The notes under the pieces are model-generated. The model made no database searches. It worked only from the letters and a program-made list of their open reading frames with translations, and was not told the DNA's origin. From Oscillospiraceae bacterium (lineage in GTDB: Bacteria; Bacillota; Clostridia; UMGS1810), in assembly GCA_015068985.1 (NCBI GenBank), contig SVJL01000006.1:1-47900 (forward strand): DNA of 47,900 nt, read 5' to 3'. Numbering within the stretch: the first letter of the stretch is position 1; each line of letters starts with the position of its first letter. A program made the position numbers and the translations under genes. This document shows positions 46,585 to 47,258 of this stretch, piece by piece.

Positions 46585-47223
46585 ATGAGATTTATTCTTG
46601 CATCAAAATCACCCCGACGCCGTGAAATTCTTTCCGGCATAGGCATGAAATTTGATATTCTGGAAAGCAGTGTTGATGAGTCGGTTATTCCGACCACTCT
46701 TGAACCAAGGTTGTATGTTCAGGAACTTGCAATGCTAAAATCAACCGATGTTGCATCCAAAGTGGGTGAGGGGAGCTATGTTGTTGGTGCCGACACGGTT
46801 GTTGTTCACAACGGCAAAATCATCGGTAAACCTCAAAACTATGATGAAGCATTTGCTATGCTTTCTTCTTTTTCAGCTTCGTCTCACAAAGTTGTATCAG
46901 GCATATCGGTAACCAACAGTTCCAATATGACAACAGTTACCGACTATTGCGAAACCGAAGTTTATTTTTCGGATATGTCCGATGAAGAAATTTCAGATTA
47001 TATCAATACATACAAACCCTTTGACAAAACGGGTGTATCTAAAGGGTATACGGACGAAAAACCGCGTCATTATTGGGAAGATAAGGCCGGAGGATACGGG
47101 ATTCAAGAATCATTTGGTATGAAATTTATAAAAGGAATCAGGGGCGATTATTATAACGTCGTCGGATTACCAATATCGAAATTGTATCAGCTTTTAAAAA
47201 AAGAGTTCAATATAACCATATAA
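46585..47223 (+). CDS. maf: Maf-family nucleoside triphosphate pyrophosphatase with mosaic 3' end
   Basis: A 212-residue house-cleaning pyrophosphatase acting on modified or non-canonical dTTP/UTP. Signature ILASKSPRRREIL at the N-terminus, VGADTVVVHNGKIIGKPQN in the middle, GYGIQESFGMKFIKGIRGDY and YNVVGLPISK at the end. Family members read [11 protein letters not shown] in one piece. Here DKTG (47023-47034) is followed by an extra 15 residues and then DKAG (47080-47091), so the motif is doubled. Codon use changes at the same point. It looks as though the 3' end was replaced when a serine-recombinase element integrated. ATG 46585 follows GGAGAGAAG. Confidence 0.85.
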   Translation: MRFILASKSPRRREILSGIGMKFDILESSVDESVIPTTLEPRLYVQELAMLKSTDVASKVGEGSYVVGADTVVVHNGKIIGKPQNYDEAFAMLSSFSASSHKVVSGISVTNSSNMTTVTDYCETEVYFSDMSDEEISDYINTYKPFDKTGVSKGYTDEKPRHYWEDKAGGYGIQESFGMKFIKGIRGDYYNVVGLPISKLYQLLKKEFNITI

Positions 47224-47225
47224 AA

Positions 47226-47254
47226 AGACGTCCATTTTCGGACGTCTCTTTTTT
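47226..47254. terminator. Terminator between maf and the recombinase gene
   Basis: An 8-bp perfect stem AGACGTCC/GGACGTCT (47226-47233 with 47240-47247), loop ATTTTC, then CTTTTTTG. Active for maf; A-rich sequence on the other side gives some activity for the recombinase gene. Confidence 0.8.
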
Positions 47255-47258
47255 GTAA

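Follow-up and report, generated by a model that had tools for sequence, protein, structure and literature searches.

Introduction

Mobile elements that integrate into protein-coding genes differ in what they leave of the gene they enter. Skin-type elements, which are prophage-like, interrupt sigK in C. difficile and B. subtilis, that of C. difficile using a large serine recombinase. The icd gene of E. coli is used by both e14 and phage 21. In the case of e14, a replacement 3′ end comes from the prophage, and the native fragment is displaced to the other end of the element (PMC6379469). Serine-integrase ICEs found in streptococcal rumA change the frame of rumA and of the integrase gene and alter the C-terminus (PMC4701971). 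Another group of serine-integrase elements, the IMEs of maff2, disrupt a membrane-protein gene of Tn5252-type ICEs (PMC5357655).

Here we describe a locus in a 47,900-nucleotide stretch of contig SVJL01000006.1 (the window), from the MAG of an Oscillospiraceae bacterium. With a probability of about 0.93, the window ends in the attL of a siphophage that integrates into maf and supplies a replacement tail for the gene, the element being a temperate member of a phage family of Clostridia. Maf is an enzyme that cleans nucleotides and has a link to cell division.

The closest parallel is e14. Both elements use a protein-coding target and leave a chimeric full-length gene at one end (in the window, in the related contig L010 and in the isolate Clostridiales bacterium CHKCI001), with a displaced native fragment at the other, as seen in CHKCI001 and in a further record, L042. 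Unlike e14, the maf phage relies on a serine integrase whose core is 2 bp, and since its tail lies past a translated att arm, the Maf of the lysogen is ~19 residues longer; the protein that e14 leaves is nearly the same as the original. The two systems are also unrelated in gene, host and phage. The rumA ICEs likewise use a serine integrase to exchange the 3′ portion of a protein-coding gene, but the maf phage provides a homologous tail in frame and leaves its integrase gene untouched. Like the maf phage, the IMEs have a serine integrase, and their target is similar in name; maff2 was rejected as the same target, since it is a different gene that does not encode the Maf pyrophosphatase and is disrupted. 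Skin resembles the maf phage as a prophage-like element within a gene and, in C. difficile, in its large serine recombinase; however, sigK function returns only on excision, whereas the integrated maf phage itself provides the replacement end. Target-gene repair is a known strategy, and what is new here is the serine integrase, the conserved Maf motif and the in-frame scar. Use of maf as a phage attachment site was not found in the literature searched, which is weak evidence as most subscription journals lay outside the search.

Results

A chimeric maf gene at the end of the window

The maf gene of the window is a host/phage chimera (Table 1). Its end reads ...INTYKPFDK-TGVSKGYTDEKPRHYWE-DKAGGYGIQESFGMKFIKGIRGDYYNVVGLPISKLYQLLKKEFNITI, so that YKPFDK is followed by TGVSKGYTDEKPRHYWE and then by DKAGGYGIQESFGMKF. 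Aligned with 32 further Mafs, the window Maf shows a net insertion of 19 columns rather than 15 residues, the DK motif being present twice (DKTG plus 15 residues or, counted otherwise, a duplicated DK plus a linker of 17). Across these 33 Mafs, the 19-column insertion is common only to the window, L010 and L043 (the CHKCI001 prophage), and the latter two Mafs are phage-chimeric as well. The P′ half-site forms an in-frame part of the linker. A preliminary description of this DNA had the recombinase gene beginning just beyond maf; the gene instead ends there, convergent with maf and with 35 bp between the two stop codons, where a hairpin terminator candidate sits, and it is cut by the end of the contig at 47900.

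Table 1. Features of the maf locus in the window (C130 is the contig of the same MAG that carries the element-free allele).
Feature	Position	Strand	Evidence
maf, whole chimeric gene	46585-47223	+	
Host-encoded maf part, residues 1-148, stopping at the Lys codon (47026-47028) of the DK motif	46585..47028	+	46905-47028 identical to C130:1-124; Maf profile match
Predicted crossover dinucleotide AA (attL core)	47026..47027	+	Centre of attP inverted repeats in 5 phage-form sequences
P′ half-site of the integrase, 26 bp	47028..47053	+	19/26 match to consensus of 15 half-sites
Phage-encoded linker TGVSKGYTDEKPRHYWE, residues 149-165 (17 residues)	47029..47079	+	Missing from C130 and 30 relatives
Phage-encoded maf replacement 3′ end, DKAGGYGIQ... 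to stop	47080..47223	+	Homologous start-less tails beside attP in L011, L012, L031, L039, L041
Probable terminator, hairpin and T run	47226..47253	.	8-pair stem (47226-47247); folding z-score -5.95 (47218-47260)
Large serine integrase, C-terminal 213 residues, cut by the contig end	47259..47900	-	Zn_ribbon_recom match; 63-68% identity to integrases of L010, L011, L012

We propose that recombination by a large serine integrase takes place between attP and an attB located on the DK codons of the conserved DKAGAYGIQ motif, with exchange at AA. Integration would cut the last ~45 codons off the host maf, and a start-less maf 3′ end, lying in matching frame beyond the phage attP arm, would give the lysogen one full-length maf. 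The Maf produced would carry a duplicated DK and a linker made up of the translated P′ half-site and a short spacer, and excision would restore the native maf. The junction in the window was probably made by the window integrase.

The replacement tail in eight phage lineages

Relatives of the element came from IMG/VR contigs and genome contigs. The maf tail is present in eight phage lineages, three integrated (the window, L010 and CHKCI001) and five in phage form with an intact attP. In L010, the chimeric maf adjoins the integrase gene; its Maf is 41% identical to that of the window and its integrase 68% over the shared part. The phage-form members (L011, L012, L031, L039 and L041) encode a maf tail without the N-terminal part, located between attP and the integrase. 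Their records include L012 (41.4 kb), L039 (43.0 kb) and L041 (51.6 kb), and the tail of L039 is the same as those of L037 and L040. From the crossover onward, the tail is in frame and free of stops in all eight lineages, which bears out the earlier proposal that the element supplies a replacement maf 3′ end in frame.

The insert of the chimeric Maf exists largely because the tail-side half-site of attP is translated. The arm TATATGGAATAC encodes I-W-N-T, and its variants encode IRYT or KGYT. The translated arm is followed by a spacer that varies in length and has W[EAQ] at its end, and then by the phage motif [DG]KAG[GA]Y. A Trp located two residues before the Asp/Gly of the phage KAG motif is kept in all eight linkers (window, L010, L011, L012, L031, L039, L041 and L043) and may pack against Maf.

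The phage maf tails differ at a pS of ~0.80 and a pN of ~0.24. Synonymous sites are thus near saturation with pN low, which argues that the tails are conserved as protein even though they are a mere gene fragment in the phage. Repeated capture from hosts could contribute to this pattern; seven of the eight phage tails have a one-residue insertion that the three host tails examined lack, which speaks for the tails having a lineage of their own in phages. The phage probably keeps the tail for the sake of retaining Maf.

The chimeric protein has the features of a Maf. It scores 198 bits against Pfam Maf, and E32, K52, D70, K82 and Q174 (window numbering) are invariant in the 33 Mafs, chimeras included. 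Maf pyrophosphatases in which the corresponding Glu or Lys is replaced are inactive or strongly lowered in activity (PMC3899018). The structure model of the chimera (mean pLDDT 87, pTM 0.82) agrees with the structures 1ex2 (B. subtilis Maf) and 4p0u (E. coli YhdE). Its pLDDT falls below 50 only at residues 147-164, and the linker is placed near the active site and predicted to be disordered. The model is compatible with a working enzyme that has a flexible loop, and we infer that the chimeric Maf is active.

The same integration could also occur with the tail as a passenger, the chimeric Maf being inactive and the tail persisting because it adjoins attP and the terminator. A disordered linker beside the active-site motif would suit such an origin, as would L013/L014 (L013 1611-1720), whose integrase belongs to the same clade and whose attP is similar but which lacks a maf tail, so that the tail is not universal in the integrase clade. 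A phage of this kind integrating at the maf site would add DKPSVSIWNTCLKIKRRLEASRF and then a stop, giving a truncated Maf, according to a manual in-frame translation that starts at the AA core. However, the stop-free frame in every one of the tails, the conservation of amino acids beside near-saturated synonymous sites and the retention of all conserved Maf residues make a passenger tail unlikely. The L013 peptide NSELYTILGYPINRVYQ was considered as a distant Maf tail and rejected; its DNA overlaps the attP arms, and the resemblance is taken as coincidence.

A complete relative in CHKCI001

The isolate CHKCI001 carries a complete prophage of ~34.6 kb with both ends readable. The chimeric maf (G016:C37:270522-271163) marks the attL end, the displaced native maf tail (G016:C37 305613-305735) the attR end, and genes for terminase, portal, major head and tape measure proteins are found between the att sites. 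The preliminary description had expected a displaced native maf 3′ fragment at the distal att site: it is present at the attR of CHKCI001, and the window's own distal end is missing from the assembly. L042, a phage contig, shows a similar attR-like end, in which the displaced maf tail (5560-5750) is followed by an mreC-like gene; no integrase of the window clade was found on its 18.5-kb record. The CHKCI001 integrase (G016:C37:304143-305579) is encoded on the attR side of attP (L018/L044), whereas the gene lies on the tail side in all other members, so the relative arrangement of tail and integrase has changed. Two further genes of the CHKCI001 prophage (L043), one for a reverse transcriptase and one close by for a DUF6273 protein with a lectin-like end (5495-6916, 7626-8810), are suggestive of a diversity-generating retroelement.

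The siphophage gene set is that of the CHKCI001 prophage, and the window element is known from the C-terminus of its integrase alone. The element in this host might on that account be an ICE, an IME or another island instead of a phage. The relatives that share its integrase, attP and tail nevertheless bear tail, lysis, replication or head genes, and a non-phage element is quite improbable.

Integrase and attachment sites

The integrases of L010, L018 and L031 each combine, in a single polypeptide, a Resolvase catalytic domain and a Recombinase domain with a zinc ribbon. Of the window copy, the assembly contains just the zinc-ribbon part, and comparison with these relatives identifies it as a large serine integrase. 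With the C-terminus alone as query, no match was found in genome contigs, and matches in phage and plasmid collections had only 26-38% identity; the window integrase was absent from the same-family genomes searched. Surveys of ~390 genomes each returned, beyond the known members, only integrases of <=48% identity, near which neither a maf tail nor the att consensus was found.

The attP of all five phage-form sequences is an inverted repeat of 26+2+26 centred on AA, with 16-20/26 matches; equally high inverted-repeat scores occur at only 1 to 6 positions per whole contig. The half-site consensus TTGTATtCCATATAgGGACACCcGTT was derived from 15 half-sites, namely those of the five attP sequences and the arms from the window, L010, L018, L042 and L043. 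In CHKCI001, attL reads GGATAA and then AACTAATG, and attR reads CAGTTAA and then GGCAGGGG. The two share TAA, which fits exchange at the AA centre, and AA is found in both attB sites. The central AA of attP maps to the DK codons of maf. In the window, the crossover is predicted at the AA of the Lys codon, inside the DK-G codons (47023-47034) to which the integration point had earlier been assigned.

The empty allele in the same MAG

A second contig of the MAG (C130, also L003) is identical over its own first 124 bp to window 46905-47028, and the identity stops right after GACAAA. It continues with GCGGGAGCGTATGGC..., which encodes the native maf tail, and an mreB-like gene follows 14 bp past the native maf stop. 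On this comparison, C130 is identified as the empty (element-free) allele of the window maf. C130 is the sole occurrence of the native maf tail sequence in the MAG, no second copy having been found there. The gene order dut, maf, mreB is seen in three same-genus genomes. With mreB normally 14 bp downstream (C130 257-274), the prophage parts maf from an mre operon. The remainder of the window prophage, including its distal end, was searched for in the 145 contigs of the MAG and not found. The MAG holds three further large serine recombinase genes (G000:C94:20962-21279, G000:C27:27422-27736 and G000:C35:6979-7221).

The 124-bp overlap presumably resembles the k-mer overlap that an assembler leaves at a graph branch, which would put both integrated and empty forms among the reads. 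Such an exact overlap, in a MAG of 145 contigs, might also point to an assembly chimera of host maf and an unrelated phage contig. However, the join sits exactly on the core that the phage attP sites predict independently, and the same join is found in the isolate genome of CHKCI001 and in L010, where Maf is only 41% identical; a chimera is rejected as highly improbable. Loop insertions are common in proteins, but a natural indel of the species maf with the recombinase as an unrelated neighbour is rejected as extremely improbable, being refuted by C130 in the same MAG, by the identical architecture in phage genomes and CHKCI001, and by the Mafs of 30 relatives with a readable motif, four of the same genus, none of which has the insert and all of which keep the DKAG motif unbroken. 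The view that the 3′ end of maf was rebuilt by a serine-recombinase element is thereby upheld: the element-free comparison proposed for it is available in C130, the extra residues that relatives might have shown are absent from all 30, and the insert occurs only in phage-chimeric Mafs.

Discussion

Reconstruction of maf by an integrating phage marks out a family of phages and a clade of serine integrases, with attP, attB, attL and attR all readable, that land on the conserved DKAGAYGIQ codons of maf. The Mafs of the two other lysogens are only 41-46% identical to that of the window. Together with its att sites, the integrase of CHKCI001, which is complete, could serve as a tool for genome engineering.

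Rather than merely repairing the gene, the phage could install an altered Maf, composed of its own C-terminal part and a linker derived from the integrase site (IWNT/IRYT/KGYT). This is rather improbable; if true, the altered Maf would change activity or regulation in lysogens, for instance the turnover of dTTP/UTP or the arrest of division with which Maf is associated. As for repair, maf was found essential by Tn-seq in C. difficile and is non-essential in B. subtilis and E. coli (PMC12548448), and essentiality in C. difficile offers a possible reason for repairing the gene in Clostridia. An attachment arm has to remain between crossover and replacement tail, and in these phages the arm is translatable. 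The maf phages illustrate how a phage with a serine integrase can reside within a gene that is possibly essential in Clostridia.
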